Source: Bacillota bacterium | GTDB lineage: Bacteria; Bacillota; UBA4882; UBA10575 | Direction: 5' to 3' | Assembly: GCA_012839115.1 (NCBI GenBank) | Contig: DUNX01000073.1 | Span: 1 to 51,376 of the forward strand | Length of the DNA: 51,376 nucleotides | Part shown: piece by piece, positions 21,069 through 43,686 of the stretch | Layout: each line of letters starts with the position of its first letter | Numbering within the stretch: the first letter of the stretch is position 1 | Program-made: the position numbers and the translations under genes | Notes under the pieces: model-generated | What the model was told of the DNA's origin: nothing | Seen by the model: only the letters and a program-made list of their open reading frames with translations | Databases searched by the model: none

Positions 21069-22493
21069 TTAACCCCTCTGTTGCTGCAGATTTTCCGTTC
21101 CTGTCCCCACAAAGAAACCTTCCTTTTCTTGAAGGTATTCCTCGCCGACTTTCCAGATATCCCCGGCGCCCATGGTGATGATGAGATCGCCGGGCAGGGT
21201 TTCCTGCAGGAGATGCTCCTTGATGGAGGCCATGTCCCCAAGATACCGGACATCCCCATGGTGTTTACCGGCCTCCGCCGCTAAAATACGGCTGGAAATA
21301 TCCCCCGGGTCCTTTTCCCGCGCCGGGTAGATGTCGGCTAAAACCAAAATATCAGCGGCATTAAAGGCATGGGCAAACTCTGTTAACAAACAACGGGTCC
21401 TGCTGAAGAGGTGGGGCTGGAAAACGCACCAGATCCGGCCGGGAAAATGGCTCCTGGCCGCCCGCAAGGCTTTGGCGATCGCCACCGGGTGATGGGCGTA
21501 ATCATCAACAACCAGTATTTTCCCGACTTCGCCTTTGATCTCAAAACGCCGCTTGACACCTTGAAATTCTTCGAGAATGGCAAGGGCCTCTTCCACTTCT
21601 ACTCCCACCTGGACCCCGGTGGCCAATGCCGCCAGAGCGTTCAATAGATTATATTCTCCTGGGACCTGCAGCCGGAGCCGGCCTTTATATTCCCCACGGT
21701 AAAACAGTTCGGCCTCTGTCCCCAGGGGCGGGCGAACCTTCGGATGGAGTAAAAACCAATCGGCCTCCTGGGAAAAGCCGAAACTGGTTACCGGCGCCTT
21801 GGAAACCGCTGCCAACTCCGGAAAATGCCTCTCCTCGCGCCAAAAAATCAACCCGCCGTCAGCCGGTAAAAGACGGATAAATTCCTGGAAGGCGTCAACC
21901 ACCATGCGTGAATCGGGGAAAATATCCGGGTGGTCCCAGTCCACATTGGTAATCACCGCGTATTTAGGGGAAAGATGTAAAAAAGAACGGCGAAATTCAC
22001 AGGCTTCAACCACAATATAAGGGCTAGCGCCGGTCCGGTGGTTCCCCGGGAGTTCCTTCATTTCGCCCCCCACCTCTACCGTGGGGTCTTTGCCGCTCCT
22101 GGTTAAGATGAGTGAGATCATAGCGGTGGTGGTGGTCTTCCCGTGCGTGCCCGCGACCGCGATGCCGACACCCATCTCCCGCATCAGTCTCCCCAAAAGC
22201 TCGGCCCCTTCCAAAACCGGGATCTTTTCGGCACGGGCCTTTATTAACTGGGGGTTGTTCTCCCCGACCGCATTGGTATAGACCACCAAATCAAGATCTT
22301 TTGTAATACACCGCGGGTCATGCCCATAATCCACCGGGATTCCCCTTGCCTCCAGTTCCCGTGTGGCCTTTGTCCGGCACCGGTCGGAACCGGCGATACG
22401 GTATCCCCTGTCACTGTAGATTTTGGCTAAAGCACTGAGACGGTTACCGCCAATGCCAATAAAATATATCCTGTCACCTGATTTCAAGAGCAT
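21069..22493 (-). CDS. murC: UDP-N-acetylmuramate--L-alanine ligase, clostridial variant
   Basis: The 474-residue Mur ligase adds L-alanine to UDP-MurNAc in peptidoglycan precursor synthesis. The ATP loop is GTHGKTTT (115-122), the central domain has ITNVDWDHPD, and the C-terminal domain has GVKRRFEIKG and VDDYAHHP. The nucleotide loop reads FIGIGGNRLSALA where classical MurC has GIGGIGMSGLA, as in a divergent clostridial branch. The ATG at 22493 follows AAAGGACGG closely. The gene lies outside any division/cell-wall cluster and is followed by ogt. Confidence 0.85.
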   Translation of the reverse strand: MLLKSGDRIYFIGIGGNRLSALAKIYSDRGYRIAGSDRCRTKATRELEARGIPVDYGHDPRCITKDLDLVVYTNAVGENNPQLIKARAEKIPVLEGAELLGRLMREMGVGIAVAGTHGKTTTTAMISLILTRSGKDPTVEVGGEMKELPGNHRTGASPYIVVEACEFRRSFLHLSPKYAVITNVDWDHPDIFPDSRMVVDAFQEFIRLLPADGGLIFWREERHFPELAAVSKAPVTSFGFSQEADWFLLHPKVRPPLGTEAELFYRGEYKGRLRLQVPGEYNLLNALAALATGVQVGVEVEEALAILEEFQGVKRRFEIKGEVGKILVVDDYAHHPVAIAKALRAARSHFPGRIWCVFQPHLFSRTRCLLTEFAHAFNAADILVLADIYPAREKDPGDISSRILAAEAGKHHGDVRYLGDMASIKEHLLQETLPGDLIITMGAGDIWKVGEEYLQEKEGFFVGTGTENLQQQRG

Positions 22494-22763
22494 CCGTCCT
22501 TTCTGATACCGCCCGGCGCCGGTATCTATCTTATTCGCCAACCAAAAAGAAAAGTATCCAGGATACAAGCAGCTCTTTAATTGACATGCTCCCCGTTCTT
22601 TGCTAAACTGACTGTTGTATCCAACATAATCAACCCGCTTGCCTTAGCTTATAATTAACCCGTTTATTATAGTTCATTATTTATAGGGGATTTCCTTCAT
22701 CTTTATATCTTATCCTTAAATTCAATAAAAAATCCATATTTTTCGAAATGGAGGTTTAAACCG

Positions 22764-24977: not shown

Positions 24978-25225
24978 ATCCTCTCCTTTCAAAAAGTTCT
25001 GTGGCACAGCGGTATAAGAGCCACAAAAACCGTTCTTATTCTCCTCCATCTTGCCGGCTCTATTCACACTCCGTGTGTACGCTTCTGCCTGTGCGCATCT
25101 GCGCATCTCCGCAATTGCGCCGGTCAGGGAAAAACGGTGGTTTTGGCTACGCTTCCCCTGTTGCCCGGGGTTTGGCTGTTTTTTTCTTCCCCCGGCTGAA
25201 GAGAATAAAAAGGGGAGGTGAGGTT

Positions 25226-25432
25226 ATGGCGCGCCGCCGGAGTATAGTCTCGGACGAGGTCAAATACGAAATAGCCCGGGAACTCGGATTTGCCGACCGG
25301 ATTCGGCGGGACAAGGGAGGTTATGATTACGGCAATATCACCACCCGCGAAGCCGGACTCATTGTCCGGGGCTTAATCCAAAAGGCCGAAGAGATGATGA
25401 GCAATAACCAGCCACCCCAGGGACGGTCTTAA
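25226..25432 (+). CDS. Alpha/beta-type small acid-soluble spore protein
   Basis: The 68-residue protein has the two SASP signatures in slightly divergent form: VKYEIARELGF near the N-terminus and YGNITTREAGLIVRGLIQKAEE near the C-terminus. Such proteins coat DNA in the spore core, protect it from UV and heat, and are degraded by the Gpr protease at germination. AGGGGAGGTGAGG precedes the ATG. A strong terminator overlaps its last codons. This gene is the clearest proof that the organism makes endospores. A sporulation-specific (SigG) promoter is expected but was not identified. Confidence 0.88.
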   Translation: MARRRSIVSDEVKYEIARELGFADRIRRDKGGYDYGNITTREAGLIVRGLIQKAEEMMSNNQPPQGRS

Positions 25433-25445
25433 CCGTCCCTTTTTC
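25419..25445 (+). terminator. Terminator of the SASP gene
   Basis: AGGGACGGT at 25419-25427 pairs with ACCGTCCCT at 25432-25440, followed by TTTTC. The stem includes the last codons and the stop codon of the gene. Confidence 0.85.
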
Positions 25446-25571
25446 TTGCCATTAATTCCTTTCCCAGCTTGAGAAGGTATTTTTCTATAACCGGAGAATT
25501 TTTAGCTAAACGCAGCACTGGACAGAGAACCGGACACAGAACCAAAGCAAAACAAGATCGGAGGAGTAATC

Positions 25572-26813
25572 ATGATGGATTCGCACTCTTTTCGTAGCAA
25601 AATTTGGAAGACCATTCAGCGGAAGACTACTCATCCCGGTACGCGTAGATGCGCAAGAGACGCCCGTGTACCGCAGGTTCGCCCCACGCGCACCGGCATT
25701 ATGTGCGCCTGCATGGTATGCAGCTTCTTCCTTGGCATCTTCCTGGTTGTAGTCCCCCCGGCTTTTGCCGCCGCTGCAACCAGCCAGACCCTCAACCGCC
25801 TTTCCAGCCTGGAAAGCCGGTGGGGCCATCTTCATCTTGGGGGGAAAATCACCTTTTCCGCGGATTATTTCACTTACGACGGGATCTTTGATCCTGAAGA
25901 ACCCGGCGAAAACCCGTCTTTGAAGGGGAGCAACGCCCTCTGGCAAGAACTCCAGATCTTTCTCAATGCCCGTTTGGACCGGCACTTCGACCTCTCGCTT
26001 TCCTTTGCCGGGCAGGATTTCTATGGTACACAGCAGTTGAGCGGTTTCTCCCTCTTTTTGAATGAGACAATCCTCAGGTACCGTTCGTCCAACCTCCTGG
26101 CTGATCTGGGCCGGCTCAATTTCTCCCTTGATCCCCTGGGCCTAATCGCCGACCGCTCTTCCTACCCGGTTGAAGGCCTGGTGGTCCAGACCGGGTCACA
26201 AAACCATTATTTCGGCGGTTACTATTCCCGGCTTGCCGGGGAAGAACTGGCTTTGCGCCTGGCTTTTCCCCAACCGGGCTATATGGCGGGTATAACCGTG
26301 ATCCCCTTCGCCGATACCGCCGTGGCTGTTGACCTCCTGGCTGAAGTGGCCGGAGGGGCACTCCAGGGTGAACTGGCCTGGTACCGCCCGGACCAAAGGC
26401 ATGTTCCGGAAGCGAGCGGCGCCTTCGGCGGCCTGTTGGCGTGGAAAAAAGATTTTGCCCTTTCCTCCCTCACCCTCCAGGCCGGGAGGTTTGAGGAGGG
26501 ATTTGCCCCCTTATCCTCCCGCCTTGCCCATGTGGCGACCAACGGGAATGCCATAAATTTTGCTCCCAACACCTACGGTGTGGCCGGGGAGTATCTCAGA
26601 AAGCTCCAGAATGGCTGGAATCTCCTGCTCAAAGCGGGGCTGCTCTACCCCTGCCGGACAACGGAAGAAAACTCTTCCGGGCACTTCTCCTTCAGCGGGC
26701 GGGTCCAAAAAGCCTTCTCTACCTCCATCAGCCTGGAGGCAGGATATGATTATCAGCCCCCGGGCGCCGGCTCCTACGGCTTTTTTATCTGCCGGCTGAC
26801 AGCCCTGTTTTAA
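25572..26813 (+). CDS. Secreted beta-rich protein resembling an outer-membrane barrel
   Basis: The 413-residue protein has a very long basic N-terminal stretch (about 1-43), then a hydrophobic segment ending PPAFAAAA (about 44-70), which reads as a signal peptide. The body (about 80-413) alternates short amphipathic beta strands with turns, for example FLNARLDRHFDLSLSFAGQD and LNETILRYRSSNLLADLGRL. The last strand is GFFICRLTALF, ending in Phe as outer-membrane barrels do. No SLH or POTRA domain is visible. The ATG at 25572 follows GGAGGAG; the in-frame ATG at 25701 has no site. Residues 24-50 are encoded by DNA rich in alternating purine-pyrimidine palindromes. A barrel is inferred from pattern only. 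Confidence 0.65.
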   Translation: MMDSHSFRSKIWKTIQRKTTHPGTRRCARDARVPQVRPTRTGIMCACMVCSFFLGIFLVVVPPAFAAAATSQTLNRLSSLESRWGHLHLGGKITFSADYFTYDGIFDPEEPGENPSLKGSNALWQELQIFLNARLDRHFDLSLSFAGQDFYGTQQLSGFSLFLNETILRYRSSNLLADLGRLNFSLDPLGLIADRSSYPVEGLVVQTGSQNHYFGGYYSRLAGEELALRLAFPQPGYMAGITVIPFADTAVAVDLLAEVAGGALQGELAWYRPDQRHVPEASGAFGGLLAWKKDFALSSLTLQAGRFEEGFAPLSSRLAHVATNGNAINFAPNTYGVAGEYLRKLQNGWNLLLKAGLLYPCRTTEENSSGHFSFSGRVQKAFSTSISLEAGYDYQPPGAGSYGFFICRLTALF

Positions 26814-26834
26814 ACCGTTGACGCAAATACAATA

Positions 26835-26865
26835 GACGGCCGGTTTTCTCCGGCCGTCTTTTTTT
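26835..26865 (+). terminator. Terminator of the barrel-like protein gene
   Basis: GACGGCCGG at 26835-26843 pairs with CCGGCCGTC at 26850-26858 around TTTTCT, followed by seven T. The gene-free stretch 26814-27138 also holds two alternating tracts and a second terminator-like hairpin; nothing else was recognised in it. Confidence 0.9.
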
Positions 26866-26981: not shown

Positions 26982-27138
26982 TCCCAATTATAAAACCTAC
27001 AAGGCTGCCAAGCCAAGGGGAGCCATAAGATGATTCCTGTCCTACGCTCTAGAGGATAAAATTACTAGATTAAATTTTCCGGGAGGATTTTTCCCTCCCG
27101 GTGGCGAATTAAAAACAAAAAGTAAAAAGGTGGTAAAG

Positions 27139-28197
27139 ATGGAAAAATTATTAAGAATTTTCTTTCCGTTTTTCCTCCTCTTTCCTTTACTCGCTGCCGG
27201 TTGTCTGCAAAAACCCTATTATCCAGGAAGAGACTATGGCGAACTAAAGATCCGTCTGGTGCTGGCAGAGGAGGCCGCCGTCACGGCACCGGTGGGAGCC
27301 GCCGGGACCACGACAGCCATTAATATCGAAAAAATCCTGATTCAACTGAGCCACGGCAAAGGTAAGCTCACCCATGCCCAAGAAATTCCCTATGTTCCCG
27401 ATCAGCCAATGGAAGCCAGTTTTTCCTCCCTGTACCCGGGGAAATGGCAGGTGACCGCGGAAGCCTACGAAGAGAGGTTTGTTGTTCTCTACTGCAGTCG
27501 TGAGGTGACCATCGAACCGGGGAGCAGCAACACCGCGGAATTATATCTCACGACGGCGCCGGGCTTTTTAGATTTTACCTTTGATGGTTCGGAGTTCCCC
27601 GGATTCGGCACAGAGGTCACCGGAGGAAAACTTTATGCCTATCTTAATCCAAAGAATAACCAGTCGACCTCTTTTCCCCTTACCCGGGAGGGCGATCGCT
27701 TAACCGGTTTGATTAAGTTACCGGCGGGCACCTTTCAAGTCCGGGTGGTTATACCGCAGATCAGCACCAAGGAATACGAGAGTCCGTACTACACGGTGCA
27801 CATTTTCCCCGGGAGAACCGTGGAACTTACTGTCGGTCCGTACGAAGAGTTGATTATAGAGGGGACCATCGATTTCCCTCCGGAAAAACCCGGCCAATTA
27901 ATCCTGAGCCAGGAAGAACCCGATGAAGCCGGTTCCGTTACCATCCATCTTTCCTGGGCAGAAGTCTCCGTAGCGGACCTGGGCGGCTATCGTCTCTACC
28001 GGACCAATGCCGAGGGGCGTTTCGTTCACCTGGCTGAAGTGGACCCTCATACCCGCGCCTACACCGATACCGTAGCGCCCGGGGCCTATTATGACGGCCG
28101 GGTCGGATACGCCGTCAGCAGCTTTGACCTGGGAGGTAATGAGAGCCTATGGAGTGAACCGGTCTACCTGGACAAGCCGGGAGAAAACAGCCAGTAA
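27139..28197 (+). CDS. Lipoprotein with beta-sandwich and fibronectin type III-like domain
   Basis: The 352-residue protein starts with a lipoprotein signal ending LLAAGC (Cys about 22), so it is lipid-anchored outside the cytoplasm. Two beta-rich domains follow (about 35-145 and 150-240, the first with SLYPGKWQVTAEAYE). A fibronectin type III-like module ends the protein (about 255-345: GSVTIHLSWAEVSVADLGGYRLYR ... YAVSSFDLGGNES, split here by the linker). It may bind carbohydrate or another surface protein. ATG at 27139 is chosen with AAAGGTGG upstream; a GTG at 27130 is in frame but too close to that site. It follows the barrel-like gene on the same strand. Confidence 0.75.
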   Translation: MEKLLRIFFPFFLLFPLLAAGCLQKPYYPGRDYGELKIRLVLAEEAAVTAPVGAAGTTTAINIEKILIQLSHGKGKLTHAQEIPYVPDQPMEASFSSLYPGKWQVTAEAYEERFVVLYCSREVTIEPGSSNTAELYLTTAPGFLDFTFDGSEFPGFGTEVTGGKLYAYLNPKNNQSTSFPLTREGDRLTGLIKLPAGTFQVRVVIPQISTKEYESPYYTVHIFPGRTVELTVGPYEELIIEGTIDFPPEKPGQLILSQEEPDEAGSVTIHLSWAEVSVADLGGYRLYRTNAEGRFVHLAEVDPHTRAYTDTVAPGAYYDGRVGYAVSSFDLGGNESLWSEPVYLDKPGENSQ

Positions 28198-37456: not shown

Positions 37457-38749
37457 CTAGATACAGACGGCCTGCCAGGCGCCGTCTTCCGGGGTTTTCT
37501 CCTGGTCTTGGCCTTGGCTATGGCTTTGGTCATACCCGTCTTCCTGCTTCTCCCTGGTGGAAGCGGCGGGTTGGGCGATATCTTCCAGGGTCTCAACAAC
37601 CAAGAGGTAAACAAGGAAGTCCCCGCCGGTTTCCCACTCTTCCCGGCGGCTTTTGATCGTAGCTGCCTCAGGAAGCAAAAATGAGAGCTCTCTTGCGGCT
37701 TCCCTGCGTGCTCTAGCCAAGGCTTCCTCCGGCGAAATCCGTACTTTCATCCAGGAGACTTCTGAATATATATCTTTTACTAATTCGACTAAACTCACTT
37801 GATTCCTTCCCCGGCAAATACTCTTTGTCTGGCGTTCCCAAAGAACCTTCCCGGAAACCTTGCCCCGCCGGAAAAAAGGGAATAACCGCTCCCGGCAACG
37901 CAAGGAAAAAACCACTGCTTGCCGGTTACTCCGGACCGGTCTCCATATCTCCAGCGGCTCCTCGCTTCTTTTCTCATACCAAACACGGGCCCTGACTATT
38001 CCTTCGGCCCGGACCGGTTGCGTAATAAACCCGCCTTCCCGGCTGGGTAATACCTTTTCTCCCAAGATCAACAAATCGCCGCGGCTGACCATATCACCCG
38101 CCTTCGCCAGCGGGGTCCCTTCCAAAACAATCAATTCACTGATTAAACCCTCTTTGGCGGCGACAATATCCGCAGGACCTTCTTCCTTTGCCGGGGGCGG
38201 GGTTTTGCCCACCATCGTGACTAATACCACCACCCCCCGCAATTCCACGTTGATCCAGGCCGCCTCCGGAAAAGCGACGGTCAATTCCTCCAAAATCCGT
38301 TCATGCTCTTTTTTTATTCTTCCCCGTAAGACCCCGGGCCGTACACCGATTTCCCTCAGTTCCTCCCGGATCTGAAGATGCCCGGGTAATTCCCCATCCT
38401 CCACGGCTACGCCGACCACCCAGACAAAGGAGGCAATGACCTGAATGGTGGTGATAAAAAAGACCAGTCCCAGCCACCGGCCCTTGTTCCGCAAGAGCCG
38501 GCGGAGGATAAAAGGCAGGCCGCTACGGTACAGAATCTTCCCCCGGCAACCGCACCGGCGGAATGCAGAGCGCAAAAGAAAAAAATCCTTCCCTCTCACC
38601 CTGAACAGGAGACGGCCGGGGGCCGGACGCCGGATCCCCCAAAGATAAATCCCTTTGCCCACCGCGCTGTTTAAAAATGCCTCCAGCCTTTTCCCCTGCG
38701 CCATTACGACCAGGTAGCCATGGTAAAAATCCAGCAACCACCGGTACAT
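37457..38749 (-). CDS. yqfD: Sporulation stage IV protein YqfD
   Basis: The 430-residue protein has an N-terminal domain (about 1-90), one membrane helix (about 93-115: GLVFFITTIQVIASFVWVV) and an outer beta-rich domain with SGELPG-like and GMVVSRGD-like segments (here DGELPGHLQIREELREIGV and GDMVSRGDLLILGEKV). It belongs to the YqfD/SpoIV family made in the mother cell during sporulation. The C-terminal tail (about 395-430) is Gln/Glu/Asp-rich. Its ATG lies one base after the yqfC stop codon, so the pair is coupled. Confidence 0.93.
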   Translation of the reverse strand: MYRWLLDFYHGYLVVMAQGKRLEAFLNSAVGKGIYLWGIRRPAPGRLLFRVRGKDFFLLRSAFRRCGCRGKILYRSGLPFILRRLLRNKGRWLGLVFFITTIQVIASFVWVVGVAVEDGELPGHLQIREELREIGVRPGVLRGRIKKEHERILEELTVAFPEAAWINVELRGVVVLVTMVGKTPPPAKEEGPADIVAAKEGLISELIVLEGTPLAKAGDMVSRGDLLILGEKVLPSREGGFITQPVRAEGIVRARVWYEKRSEEPLEIWRPVRSNRQAVVFSLRCRERLFPFFRRGKVSGKVLWERQTKSICRGRNQVSLVELVKDIYSEVSWMKVRISPEEALARARREAARELSFLLPEAATIKSRREEWETGGDFLVYLLVVETLEDIAQPAASTREKQEDGYDQSHSQGQDQEKTPEDGAWQAVCI

Positions 38750-39203: not shown

Positions 39204-40631
39204 TTAACAGGGGCTATTCTCTTTTTTCTTCTTTTTCTCCTCCAGGTACCGCAGGAGTCTTTCCCTGGTATTCCGTTCCGGGTCTTCTGTTACCCAGGAA
39301 AAAAGTTCCTGCATAACCCGGCCGACTTCCGGGCCGGGGGCCAGACCCAGCACAGCCATGACATCGCGGCCATTAACCGCCAAATCGCTCAGGGTCAAAA
39401 CCTTTTCCTCCCGGAGCAGGGCTTGAATGCGGGAGGCAAATTCGGAAAGGATCCGCCATGCCCGGTGATAATGGTTCCCGCTGGCAACAATATCGGCCCT
39501 GCGCAATTCGAGCAAGTCAATAAGGGCCTCCCGCCCAACCTTGGCGGCCAGGCGCCGCAAGGCCGTATCGCTCATTCCCGGATCGCACGGGAACATATGC
39601 CGCCGGACCAGAATCAAAACCTTCTCCGTAAACGCCCGGGAGAAGCGGAGCCGTTCGAGCAAAACGGCGGCCAATTTTTCCCCGGCCTGCTCATGACCGA
39701 AATAATGAATGCCCGTGCCGTCCTGGATCCGGGTGGCCGGCTTGCCCAAATCATGGAGGAAAGCCGCCCAGCGCAGGTGTGGTTCGGGTTTTATCGCCTC
39801 CACCGTGGCGAGCAAATGCTCCATTAACTCCGGATCCATCACCACCGGTGTAAATTCGGGTGCAATTATAGTTAAAAGGCCCGTCCGTACCAGTCCCCGT
39901 AATGCTTTGCCCGGGGCAACCCCGGTCAGGAGCTTGTTTAGTTCCTCCCGGACCCGCTCAGGGCTGACTTTGGCAAGAAGGGAGGGGTCCTCAGCCGCCA
40001 CTTGTGCAATAACCCGTTCGGTCTCCGCTTCCCCGCGGAAGTTGAGAACCGCCTGGAAACGGTAGAATCGCAGCATCCGCAGGGCGTCTTCGCTGAACCG
40101 GGACTGGGGATCCCCGACCGTCCGGATGACCCGCCTCCGGAGATCCCCCCGGCCCCTGAAGGGATCCACCAATTTTTGCGCAAGCGGGTCCAGGGCCATG
40201 GCGTTAACCGTAAAATCCCGGCGGGAAAGATCATCCACCACCGATTCTTCAAACTCGACCCAGTCCGGACGGCGGCCGTCGGTATACGTCCCTTCCCGGC
40301 GGAAAGTCGTCACATCCACCGGTATTTCCCCGGTAAGCACCCGGACGGTCCCAAAACGCTTGCCCGTATGCACAAGCAACCGGCCGGGAAAGACCTCCTC
40401 CACCTGCCCGGGCAGGGCGCTGGTGGCCACATCCCAGTCCTCCGGCTCACGCCCTAAAAAAAGATCACGAAGGGCCCCGCCGACAAGAAAAGCCTGAAAC
40501 CCCCGGGCTTTTAACTCTGCTATCACCGCCATTACTTCCCCGGGGATCCGCGGTAAAACACGGCGGATACCGGGACGCCATTCCCGGAAACGTCGCGTGC
40601 GCGCGTGCCTGTTCCCACCAACCGTCAACAT
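39204..40631 (-). CDS. cca: CCA-adding tRNA nucleotidyltransferase
   Basis: The 475-residue class II enzyme builds or repairs the 3' CCA end of tRNAs. The nucleotidyltransferase head starts FLVGGALRDLFLGREPEDWD with metal-binding aspartates. RRDFTVNAMALDPL and GVAPGKALRGL follow, and a C-terminal HD domain contains LRWAAFLHDLGKPATR. The ATG at 40631 is the first in-frame start with GGGGGAG upstream, but residues 2-28 are Arg-rich, unlike relatives, and are partly encoded by an alternating tract (40594-40608). Some tRNA genes here encode CCA, so the enzyme would serve mainly in repair. Confidence 0.92.
   Translation of the reverse strand: MLTVGGNRHARTRRFREWRPGIRRVLPRIPGEVMAVIAELKARGFQAFLVGGALRDLFLGREPEDWDVATSALPGQVEEVFPGRLLVHTGKRFGTVRVLTGEIPVDVTTFRREGTYTDGRRPDWVEFEESVVDDLSRRDFTVNAMALDPLAQKLVDPFRGRGDLRRRVIRTVGDPQSRFSEDALRMLRFYRFQAVLNFRGEAETERVIAQVAAEDPSLLAKVSPERVREELNKLLTGVAPGKALRGLVRTGLLTIIAPEFTPVVMDPELMEHLLATVEAIKPEPHLRWAAFLHDLGKPATRIQDGTGIHYFGHEQAGEKLAAVLLERLRFSRAFTEKVLILVRRHMFPCDPGMSDTALRRLAAKVGREALIDLLELRRADIVASGNHYHRAWRILSEFASRIQALLREEKVLTLSDLAVNGRDVMAVLGLAPGPEVGRVMQELFSWVTEDPERNTRERLLRYLEEKKKKKENSPC
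40594..40608. other. 15-bp alternating purine-pyrimidine run at the start of cca
   Basis: CGCGTGCGCGCGTGC alternates strictly and falls within codons 9-13 of the cca reading frame, inside the Arg-rich extension that relatives lack. Confidence 0.65.
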
Positions 40632-40645
40632 CCTTTCTCCCCCAA

Positions 40646-40681
40646 TACCCGCTATATCCGCATTACCCGTTATATCCGTCC
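40646..40681. repeat. 18-bp tandem repeat in the cca-cwlD divergent region
   Basis: TACCCGCTATATCCGCAT at 40646-40663 is followed by TACCCGTTATATCCGTCC at 40664-40681, with 15 of 18 positions the same. The pair lies between the divergent cca and cwlD starts and could contain promoter or operator sites. Confidence 0.7.
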
Positions 40682-40716
40682 AGGCCTCCGGAATAAATAT
40701 CTATAACGAAAGCGAT

Positions 40717-41475
40717 GTGAGTCTCGTGCTGATCATCTTATTACTGCCGCCAGGATTTCGCCGTTTTCTCTTCATCCTGGGCGGGCTGACCCTCGTTTCC
40801 TTACTGGCCGGGGCTTTTTATCCTTCCGGCTTAATACAAAGCCTCATAAGCACCTCCGGCCCGGTGGTGGTGGTTGATCCCGGGCACGGTGGCGTCGACG
40901 GCGGTACCGGCGAGCAAGGAGGAACTCTCGAGAAAGAGATCAACCTCGCCATTGCCCTGCGCGTACGGGATCACCTGCGCACCGGCGGGGCGAACGTTGT
41001 GATGACCAGAACAACCGATACGGACCTTTCCCCTTTTGTCCCGGGGAAAAGCGGCCGGCACCGGCGGGATCTGGCTGCCCGCATCGAAAAAGCCAGAAAG
41101 GCCGGGGCTGTTTGCCTTGTCAGTATCCATTGCGACTGGTCGGAAGATAAAAAAAGACGGGGAGCGGTGGCCTTCTACAACCCCCGTAACAACACCGGTA
41201 AAGAGCTTGCCTGCCTCATCCAGGAAGAACTGAACAAAGTGCAAGCCGTACCCCAAAAGGCGGCCCCGGGCAATTTCTTCATCCTCAACCAAACCGGGTT
41301 GACCGCTGCTTTGGTGGAAGCCGGTTTCCTTTCCCATCCGGAAGAAGCGCGGTTGCTCGGGACCCCGGCTTACCAAAGCCGGTTGGCCCGGGCAATTGCC
41401 AACGGGATCCGCCGCTATAACCGGTGGTACGGTAACAACCGGCAACCCGCCGTTCATGAAGGGTTAAAACGGTAG
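40717..41475 (+). CDS. cwlD: N-acetylmuramoyl-L-alanine amidase CwlD
   Basis: The 252-residue amidase_3 enzyme cleaves the stem peptide from muramic acid. In spore formers CwlD makes the muramic delta-lactam of the cortex, which germination enzymes recognise. It has an N-terminal membrane helix (about 16-36), zinc ligands His57 in VDPGHGG and His138 in VSIHCDW, a glutamate in LEKEINLA and the C-terminal LVEAGFLSHPEE. The GTG at 40717 gives the normal length; it has only a weak GAAAG site. The longer frame from 40597 would overlap cca and add repeat-derived residues. Confidence 0.88.
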   Translation: MSLVLIILLLPPGFRRFLFILGGLTLVSLLAGAFYPSGLIQSLISTSGPVVVVDPGHGGVDGGTGEQGGTLEKEINLAIALRVRDHLRTGGANVVMTRTTDTDLSPFVPGKSGRHRRDLAARIEKARKAGAVCLVSIHCDWSEDKKRRGAVAFYNPRNNTGKELACLIQEELNKVQAVPQKAAPGNFFILNQTGLTAALVEAGFLSHPEEARLLGTPAYQSRLARAIANGIRRYNRWYGNNRQPAVHEGLKR

Positions 41476-41478
41476 CCG

Positions 41479-42726
41479 CTAAAGCGGCCGGTTAAAATTC
41501 CCCACCAGCAGGCCGGGGAATTCCTTTTTCAGTTCGGCACAGAAACGGCTGATCCCGGCGGCAGGCCCGGAACCGGCCTTCATCACCTGCCAAAACCACT
41601 CCGGGTCGATATTTAAATTGCGCAGTTGAATCATGTCCACCGGATGCCGGTGCAACCAGCGGAAAAGCGCTGTCATTTCTTCACGACGGTCGGTATATCC
41701 GGGCATCACCAACAAGTTCAAGGAGGTAAAGACCCCCAACGCCCCAAGCCGGTCGATTGACTGCCCCACCTGGTCCAGGCTGTAATTCTGCGGCCGGTGG
41801 TACCGGTGGTAGTGGCCGGGAAGCGCCGATAAAAGGCTGATCCGGGCGGAATTCAAACCGGCCCCGGCCAAGGCTTCCAGCCCTTGGGGGAGCCCGGCAT
41901 TGGTATTGATATTAATCGTACCCGCGCCGGTATGCCTCCGGATTTTTTCTACAGCACGGACCAGCAGCGGCCAAACGGTCAACGGTTCTCCCTCACACCC
42001 CTGGCCAAAGCTGATGATGGTCTTGCCGGCCCGCAGGTGGGGTAAGGCCACCTCAACAATCTCCTCCACCGCCGGTTGAAAAGCAATCCTTTCCTGCGGC
42101 GAAGGGCAACACTCCGCCGGTTGCAGGGAAATGCAGCCCAGGCAGCGGGCGTTGCAAGCGGAAGAAACCGGAACGCCCCCCTCCCCGCGGCCAAGAAAAA
42201 TATTCCGCGCTGTCAGGCACTTATAAACAAGGGTACAGTGGGCCAGTTGTTTCAGGATTCTGTTTTTTGGGTGGGCGGCCAGCATTTTTTCGACCAAAGC
42301 CGGAATTTTTTTTTCTTCCCCTTCCCGCACCCGCCACCCGGCAGTTGCCTCGTCCGTCTTTTGCGCGGCAATAAAAAGCCGGCCGTTGACAGCCGCCACA
42401 GCCGTATAACCGAAAAGCGGCAACCGCGGGGCGGAGGGTAACGACTGGTAAGCCGGTAAAAAGAGCCGGGTATAGCCGGGAGGGAGGCCGGCGGCCACCG
42501 CCGTCCGTTCTTCCCCCGGTAACAGCTCTTGCCTGCTGCTTTGCCTGTTGATCCCGGCAGGACGGCGCTGGGGGAGAAAAAAAAGATCCGCTTCCGGGGG
42601 CAAAGGAACCAAAGACTCCCTCTTCAATTCCACCCATTGTTCCCCGCTGGCGCCTAAGGCCAACATCCTGTCGTCGATCCCGATCTTTCCGTCCGGACCG
42701 GCGTAAACCGCAAATACTTTCTCCAT
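41479..42726 (-). CDS. Radical SAM protein of unknown substrate
   Basis: The 415-residue protein has a radical SAM iron-sulfur motif, Cys191-x3-Cys195-x2-Cys198 (SACNARCLGC), followed by two more cysteines at 206-207. GQGCEGEPL, with NINTNAGLPQGLEAL next to it, resembles the SAM-binding and GGE-like strands. An N-terminal domain of about 180 residues (1-185) without a known fold precedes it. The product cannot be named. The gene converges with cwlD (3 bases between stop codons) and is followed upstream by an ABC ATPase gene on the same strand, 12 bases away, so those two may form an operon. Confidence 0.85.
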   Translation of the reverse strand: MEKVFAVYAGPDGKIGIDDRMLALGASGEQWVELKRESLVPLPPEADLFFLPQRRPAGINRQSSRQELLPGEERTAVAAGLPPGYTRLFLPAYQSLPSAPRLPLFGYTAVAAVNGRLFIAAQKTDEATAGWRVREGEEKKIPALVEKMLAAHPKNRILKQLAHCTLVYKCLTARNIFLGRGEGGVPVSSACNARCLGCISLQPAECCPSPQERIAFQPAVEEIVEVALPHLRAGKTIISFGQGCEGEPLTVWPLLVRAVEKIRRHTGAGTININTNAGLPQGLEALAGAGLNSARISLLSALPGHYHRYHRPQNYSLDQVGQSIDRLGALGVFTSLNLLVMPGYTDRREEMTALFRWLHRHPVDMIQLRNLNIDPEWFWQVMKAGSGPAAGISRFCAELKKEFPGLLVGNFNRPL

Positions 42727-42738
42727 CCTCTCCCGCGT

Positions 42739-43686
42739 TTAAGAAACCTCTCTTTCCTCGGTAATAATCTGTAAAAAGATCTCTTCCAGCGTAAGATCGA
42801 CCGGCTTTAACATGAGGATCGGATACCCTTCGTTGCTCATGGCGTAAAAGATCGGCTTCCTGATATCCGTCTTCAATTCCGCTTCAACCAGAAAATCGAA
42901 GGCGCCGGGTTCAGCCGACCCCTTTTCTATAAGGTTCTTAACCCCCTCCACATTGGCCAGGGCGGCCCGGATCCGGTCCTCCGGTCCGGCAACCCGTACG
43001 AGCAACCGGTTTTTACCGGAAAGGCGGTGGGCCAGGTTTTCCGGGGTATCGCCCGCCACAATCTCGCCTTTGTTTATTATGATCACCCGTTCACAGACCA
43101 CACTGACCTCGGGCAAAATATGGGAACTCAAGATAATAGTATGTTCTTTACCCAGTTCTTTAATGAGAGTCCGGATCTCGATGATCTGTTTGGGATCAAG
43201 GCCAATCGTCGGCTCGTCAAGGATCAAAACCGGCGGGTTCCCCACCAGTGCTTGGGCCAATCCCACCCTTTGCTTGTACCCTTTGGAGAGGTTTCTGATT
43301 AAGCGGTCTTGCACGTCGCCGATCCTCACCAAATCCATAATCTTTTCCATACCGGTTTTCTCTTCCTCCGGCGGGACCTTTTTAATTCTGGTCACAAAAT
43401 CCAAATATTCCCTGACCGTCATATCCCCGTAAAGCGGGGGAAACTCCGGCATATACCCGATCATCTTTTTGACCGCCAGCGGTTCCTCCAAAATATCATG
43501 GCCGCCCACTTCCACCCGGCCTTCGGTGGCAGAGATATAGCCGGTGATAATATTCATGGTAGTGGTTTTGCCGGCGCCATTTGGCCCCAAAAAGCCCAGG
43601 ACCTCCCCACGGCTGACGGTGAAACTCAAACGGTTCACCGCTACATGGGTACCATAACGTTTCGTGACATTTTCGACTTTAATCAC
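42739..43686 (-). CDS. ABC transporter ATP-binding protein (exporter type, GldA-like)
   Basis: The 315-residue ATPase has Walker A GPNGAGKTT (34-42), signature LSKGYKQR (133-140) and Walker B VLILDEP (153-159), then a C-terminal extension of about 95 residues as in GldA/NatA-type exporters. The start is a GTG after AAGGAGAGA. No permease lies beside it in the window; the gene downstream is a radical SAM protein 12 bases away. It may work with a permease encoded elsewhere or have lost its partner. Confidence 0.88.
   Translation of the reverse strand: MIKVENVTKRYGTHVAVNRLSFTVSRGEVLGFLGPNGAGKTTTMNIITGYISATEGRVEVGGHDILEEPLAVKKMIGYMPEFPPLYGDMTVREYLDFVTRIKKVPPEEEKTGMEKIMDLVRIGDVQDRLIRNLSKGYKQRVGLAQALVGNPPVLILDEPTIGLDPKQIIEIRTLIKELGKEHTIILSSHILPEVSVVCERVIIINKGEIVAGDTPENLAHRLSGKNRLLVRVAGPEDRIRAALANVEGVKNLIEKGSAEPGAFDFLVEAELKTDIRKPIFYAMSNEGYPILMLKPVDLTLEEIFLQIITEEREVS

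Follow-up and report, generated by a model that had tools for sequence, protein, structure and literature searches.

A predicted porin-type outer-membrane barrel in a diderm spore former of the Bacillota and the pairing of its family with an amidase gene

Introduction

What does a protein that resembles an outer-membrane barrel do beside a spore gene in the Bacillota? The question is raised by P0001, a protein encoded in the window, by which we mean the whole 51,376-nucleotide stretch of DNA analysed here. A first-pass annotation of the window had noted a signal peptide, amphipathic strands and a terminal Phe in P0001, together with spore genes nearby. It proposed either an endospore-forming diderm or a novel secreted beta protein.

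LPS-diderm Bacillota, including sporulating ones, are already known, among them Acetonema longum (PMC5007114) and Limnochorda pilosa (cited in PMC7924749). The OmpM proteins of Veillonella parvula combine tether and pore, and OmpM has been proposed as the ancestral tether of the Terrabacteria (PMC10628300). In Veillonella the OmpM proteins are the only general porins. Nutrient uptake is thus tied genetically to tethering, a connection that enters models of outer-membrane loss in the Firmicutes (PMC10628300, PMC5007114).

Results

The genome combines outer-membrane and spore genes

The first-pass annotation made its reading depend on BamA, and BamA is encoded on contig C94 (4.4e-33). Three proteins of the genome match Omp85 (PF01103). 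One is BamA, which has POTRA domains; the other two are smaller Omp85-like barrels. Around BamA, contig C94 encodes TamB-like/AsmA-type proteins, OmpH/Skp, LpxD, LptF/G, an LptD-like barrel, LptC and LptA. Contig C28 carries lpxC followed by fabZ, lpxA, lpxI, lptC, lptA, lptB and lptF/G, the genes after lpxC being read by eye. Both LpxC and LpxD were found when lpx genes were looked for outside the window, as the annotation had proposed. No Pfam LptD match was obtained in the genome; the lpt cluster encodes an LptD-like protein of 793 aa (L006:8650-11031, minus strand) with an OstA-like N-terminal part and a barrel-like C-terminal part.

The same genome encodes SpoIVA. Within the window, the SASP (26.7 bits) and YqfD (278 bits, 37457-38749) gene calls were confirmed. 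The cwlD call held in part: CwlD is the best NCBIfam match of the protein encoded at 40597-41475, but the score lies under that model's cut-off. An outer-membrane gene set (BamA, Lpt, Lpx, Skp) and SpoIVA, SASP and YqfD therefore occur in one MAG, as expected of the endospore-forming diderm that the annotation proposed. Genome completeness is 96.9%. A contamination artefact can be ruled out, since contamination is 0.03%, the barrel and spore genes share one contig and the barrel gene recurs near murC in relatives. Judged by the gene content of this MAG, the host is an LPS-diderm spore former.

The two short additional Omp85-like proteins are encoded at L008:312-1598, with one weak POTRA, and at L009:8112-9233, with no POTRA, the latter gene following one for a PD40/peptidase-like protein. 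Relatives have similar short Omp85-like proteins. Directly upstream of lpxC lies an ABC ATPase gene, and before it a gene for an 847-aa membrane protein that has no confident Pfam match (L108:4877-7420, plus strand). Genes like it stand at the same position in the relatives inspected (L123-L127), and its product is a candidate for a lipid transporter within this cluster of outer-membrane genes.

The P0001 gene lies between a strong ribosome-binding site and a terminator-like hairpin

Features of the locus are given in Table 1. Upstream of the gene, AGATCGGAGGAGTAATCATG contains a near-perfect Shine-Dalgarno sequence about 6 nt 5' of ATG 25572/25575. Because this sequence is placed before that start, the n-region of the P0001 signal is unusually long and Arg-rich, at about 42 aa. 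Two of the three species of the genus have this basic n-region (window 25572-25772 and L004:10001-10200); it is short in L005. The signal peptide claimed by the annotation is a Sec signal, recognizable by its hydrophobic core and cleavage site. No TM helix was found after it, the maximal Kyte-Doolittle value past residue 70 being 1.62 over 19-residue stretches.

Table 1. Features at and around the P0001 locus (window coordinates)
Feature	Position	Strand	Basis
Predicted porin-like outer-membrane barrel gene (P0001, 413 aa)	25572..26813	+	Homologues in 28/41 relatives
Ribosome-binding site GGAGGAG, upstream of ATG 25572/25575	25558..25564 (to within a few bases)	+	Sequence
Sec signal extended by a long n-region rich in Arg; hydrophobic core at residues 43-61, AFA|A near 64-67	25572..25772	+	Cleavage site by eye
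Residues 71-84, SQTLNRLSSLESRW: short stretch with a heptad-like pattern, immediately N-terminal of the predicted barrel	25782..25823	+	Our inference
Predicted barrel domain ending in the C-terminal Phe (roughly residues 86-413), with about 16 strand-like segments of amphipathic character	25827..26810	+	Family-mean alternation; strand count inferred
Intrinsic-terminator-like hairpin, 10 bp stem and T-rich tail, directly 3' of the barrel gene	26834..26859	+	
Alpha/beta-type SASP gene directly upstream of the barrel gene	25220..25432	+	PF00269, above cut-off
Terminator-like hairpin between the SASP and barrel genes	25419..25440	+	
MurC gene, divergent neighbour of the barrel gene	21069..22568	-	TIGR01082, 440 bits vs cut-off 335
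Lipoprotein-like gene with lipobox-like LLAAGC	27130..28197	+	No Pfam match

Eight terminator-like sites occur in the region, compared with 6.1 expected, but the hairpin after the barrel gene is well placed and suggests a single-gene unit at the window locus. The lipoprotein-like gene is conserved downstream of the barrel gene (and the amidase gene described below) in family f1.

The P0001 family occurs only in genomes that encode Omp85

Identity to P0001 is 79-84% in the genus and falls to about 45% at the level of the family and about 30% at that of the class. When genome contigs were scanned, the only close relatives were two Bacillota bacterium MAGs, AS09scLD_55 and AS09scLD_203. A profile search extended the P0001 family to further taxonomic families of the phylum, and near and far members aligned over 343 columns with an hhalign probability of 100%. 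Most of our profile work used alignment A3, with 22 members, and A4, which contains ten distant members of A3 and leaves out the close relatives of the window. Motifs in A3 include a strongly conserved P.GL at about residues 188-191 and G.[YW]SRLSS.Y.

Single-sequence searches of Pfam, NCBIfam and PDB with P0001 gave no match. Against Pfam and NCBIfam, P0001 and its homologues together showed no SLH, porin or other plausible domain match. The family thus appears to be undescribed in the libraries searched. The absence of an SLH domain, stated in the annotation, extends to the homologues, but the genome encodes a separate SLH-containing OmpM-like protein.

All family-positive relatives are Omp85-positive (28/28, versus 32/41 of the relatives overall; P = 2e-6). 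In a sample of 249 genomes of the phylum, 22/22 family-positive genomes are Omp85/BamA-positive, versus 63/249 overall (P = 3e-15). These P values, from samples covering nine taxonomic families, treat kin genomes as independent. No P0001 family member was found at E <= 0.001 in Omp85-negative genomes of either the relatives or the phylum sample. Most Omp85-negative relatives are SpoIVA-positive, which rules out a barrel common to any spore former. Conversely, the single-protein query had no match in four Omp85-positive relatives (G017, G018, G035 and G040), and a P0001-type protein is therefore dispensable for a diderm of this phylum.

Family-level evidence points to a beta-barrel

The amphipathic strands noted in the annotation stand out in the family mean, while the single sequence is suggestive only. 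Family-mean hydrophobicity alternates with period 2 (z = 5.0), and 0/5000 column permutations reached this value. For P0001 alone, the alternation was equalled in 121/2000 shuffles. Strand-like peaks in the family mean numbered 17, not clearly higher than the 13.9 +/- 2.2 seen in permuted columns. The family-profile alternation resembles that of two barrels encoded in this genome, BamA and the LptD-like protein. The terminal Phe holds firmly: it is the last residue in 22/22 members of A3 and is invariant among homologues as remote as 20% identity.

Profile A3 matched a single solved structure, PDB 10aw, a '50 kDa outer membrane protein' of 473 aa (E = 0.0072), and A4 matched the same segment (E = 0.012). 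The match is marginal and spans only about 107 residues, comprising N-terminal strands that end in a GR motif; the remainder of 10aw could not be aligned to the P0001 family. PDB 10aw/10dn is probably Campylobacter Omp50. In a control hhalign comparison, the P0001 family did not match the LptD-like barrel of the genome. AlphaFold2, given three near-identical sequences, modelled P0001 with a pLDDT of 29.

From the Omp85-restricted distribution, the family-level alternation, the 10aw match, the signal and the terminal Phe, we infer that P0001 is an outer-membrane barrel, and a closed barrel is predicted on the same footing. General diffusion porins of the OmpF type, which are trimers with 16-18 strands and a measurable channel, resemble P0001 in their length of about 330 residues, their Sec signal, the Phe at the C-terminus and the alternation. 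P0001 differs from them in having no Pfam or NCBIfam match to such families, and its strand number of about 16 is suggested from sequence only.

The barrel gene is paired with an amidase gene in most families

We examined the neighbourhood of the barrel gene across the family. Outside the genus of the window and family f5, the barrel gene adjoins an N-acetylmuramoyl-L-alanine amidase gene at 25/25 loci. At 22 of those loci the barrel gene, or its second tandem copy, is followed by a same-strand Amidase_3 gene after a gap of 20-450 bp. The two f36 genomes have this same order. At the single f12 locus the order is reversed, with the amidase gene directly before the barrel gene and a 4-bp overlap. 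The pair is conserved, in both gene orders, across families f1, f2, f6, f12, f36, f53, f87 and f93. In f6 it comes after ftsZ, and the cluster there also contains murC, murB and a gene resembling murA; murC lies near the barrel gene in f1, f5 and f6.

The linked amidases have a signal peptide and about 210 aa, match PF01520 and score under the NCBIfam cut-offs for CwlD, AmiA and AmiC. The 17 of them that were placed in a tree all fall into a single clade (support 96/81), which excludes other Amidase_3 proteins and the CwlD of the window; the f12 amidase is a long branch within this clade. They share PF01520 and a signal peptide with AmiA/AmiC/CwlD-type enzymes, and differ from these in forming their own clade and in their genetic tie to an outer-membrane barrel. 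No adjacent amidase gene is present at the loci of the window's genus or at six f5 loci. In the window's genus the barrel gene stands alone.

These data could mean that the barrel serves chiefly as a partner of the amidase, structural or regulatory, and has pore activity only as a secondary property. It would place, shield or activate the enzyme in the periplasm, at the outer membrane, and the cutting of peptidoglycan would then keep pace with outer-membrane invagination during division or spore formation. The retention of the pair in eight families and in both orders, the single amidase clade, the ftsZ-barrel-amidase order of f6, the murC neighbour in f1 and f5 and the P.GL motif are all consistent with such a partner. 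However, the window's genus and f5 keep the barrel with no adjacent amidase, so it must work there either on its own or with an unlinked amidase, and the size of the barrel fits a pore. We consider a primarily amidase-directed role rather unlikely.

SLH proteins of the same genome are candidate tethers

The OmpM-like protein is encoded in the lpxC-lpxA-lpt cluster (L108:16589-17662, plus strand; G000:C28, about 42588-43661). It consists of a divergent SLH domain, a linker and a small C-terminal barrel-like part ending in FRF. Pfam SLH missed this domain; in a profile of the protein's family, it is the SLH region that gives the matches to VpOmpM1 (7e-13) and SlpA (5e-7). The presence of this separate gene rules out P0001 as the OmpM of the genome.

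Could P0001 instead descend from a barrel of the OmpM/SlpA type, with the SLH domain and the coiled coil lost and a pure porin left? In Veillonella parvula OmpM1 (8BYM/8BYS) and Deinococcus SlpA, a porin-sized C-terminal barrel follows a heptad-like stretch (PMC10628300, PMC9388160). P0001 likewise has a short heptad-like stretch just before its first predicted strand, which is possibly a remnant or a short coiled coil. VpOmpM1 also contains GGFYSRLSSGNLNHNGVTV, which resembles the G.[YW]SRLSS.Y motif and is a lead only, and such a loss would agree with the proposed ancestry of OmpM as a tether (PMC10628300). Unlike OmpM and SlpA, P0001 has no SLH domain, and its barrel shows no detectable homology to theirs. 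It also seems to lack a full coiled-coil stalk: the stalk region amounts to about 14 heptad-like residues, read by eye. Profiles A1, A3 and A4 did not match the OmpM1 chains 8BYM/8BYS, which were present in the structure library. By hhalign, the P0001 family reached a probability of <= 1% against an SLH-OmpM from the same phylum (L118), and likewise against the family of the OmpM-like protein of this genome. Barrels diverge fast, and the missing OmpM match leaves room for distant homology. Together with the separate OmpM-like gene of the host, these comparisons make descent from an OmpM by loss of its tether improbable.

Poorer still is the case for a secreted or periplasmic beta-rich protein, such as a surface or spore-coat protein, with no integral outer-membrane barrel: the low pLDDT, the weak single-sequence alternation and the SASP gene directly upstream would suit it, but we judge it very improbable given a family confined to Omp85-positive genomes and missing from monoderm spore formers among the relatives, an invariant C-terminal Phe, family-level alternation and the marginal match to an outer-membrane protein.

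Two small secreted proteins (L013:1363-2013, plus strand; L014:1168-1701, minus strand) combine a single SLH domain with a central part resembling a coiled coil and a hydrophobic stretch at the C-terminus. By sequence they are candidates for additional, non-barrel outer-membrane tethers. Their architecture resembles that of Thermotoga Omp-alpha. Among the Omp85-positive genomes with no barrel match (G017, L120; G018, L121; G040, L118), G040 has a large SLH-coiled-coil-barrel OmpM instead (L118:3645-5624).

Discussion

Our preferred reading, which we consider probable, is that P0001 is an untethered porin-type outer-membrane barrel, inserted by Bam and historically coupled to peptidoglycan cleavage. 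P0001 would be exported by Sec and cross the periplasm. Given the signal, the terminal Phe and the genome content, BamA would then insert it through the C-terminal strand that ends in the invariant Phe. The mature part of about 330 residues would leave room for about 16 strands and hence for a barrel as large as that of OmpF or VpOmpM1. With enough residues for such a barrel, P0001 would most likely act as a pore through which small solutes cross the LPS outer membrane by non-specific diffusion. A conserved amidase partner would be unusual if P0001 were a plain porin and speaks against this reading, in which pore activity is a prediction.

Since P0001 has no SLH domain, it would not itself be the tether. 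Tethering is probably performed by the separate SLH-containing OmpM-like protein and by the small proteins with an SLH domain, a coiled coil and a C-terminal helix. Tether and pore appear to be divided between separate genes in the host genome. If this is true, a widespread SLH-free porin-type barrel beside a separate SLH-OmpM would show that pore and tether can be uncoupled.

In most of the family the barrel gene is paired with that of a periplasmic amidase of one clade and has murC nearby, and in one lineage it follows ftsZ. The porin-type barrel was therefore probably used in concert with the cleavage of peptidoglycan while the envelope grew or divided. More tentatively, the barrel and its dedicated amidase might form a new module for coordinating outer membrane and peptidoglycan in diderm spore formers. 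As a speculative extension, the barrel could place or gate the amidase, with wall cutting following outer-membrane constriction at division or reshaping at sporulation. It is conceivable, at about the same modest level of belief, that SLH proteins would provide the tether in such a module, so that pore, tether and cleavage are split among genes and not joined as in OmpM. The pairing of a barrel with a wall-cutting enzyme hints that the outer membrane and the cell wall are connected in a way so far unstudied, and it is a concrete, testable candidate for coordinating two membranes and the wall in division and sporulation. We found no report of the barrel-amidase pair in a literature search that covered mainly openly accessible papers.

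One genome, G194, carries tandem barrel genes, two per locus at two loci (L116 and L117), each locus ending in a linked amidase gene. These tandem copies are a family expansion in one lineage.
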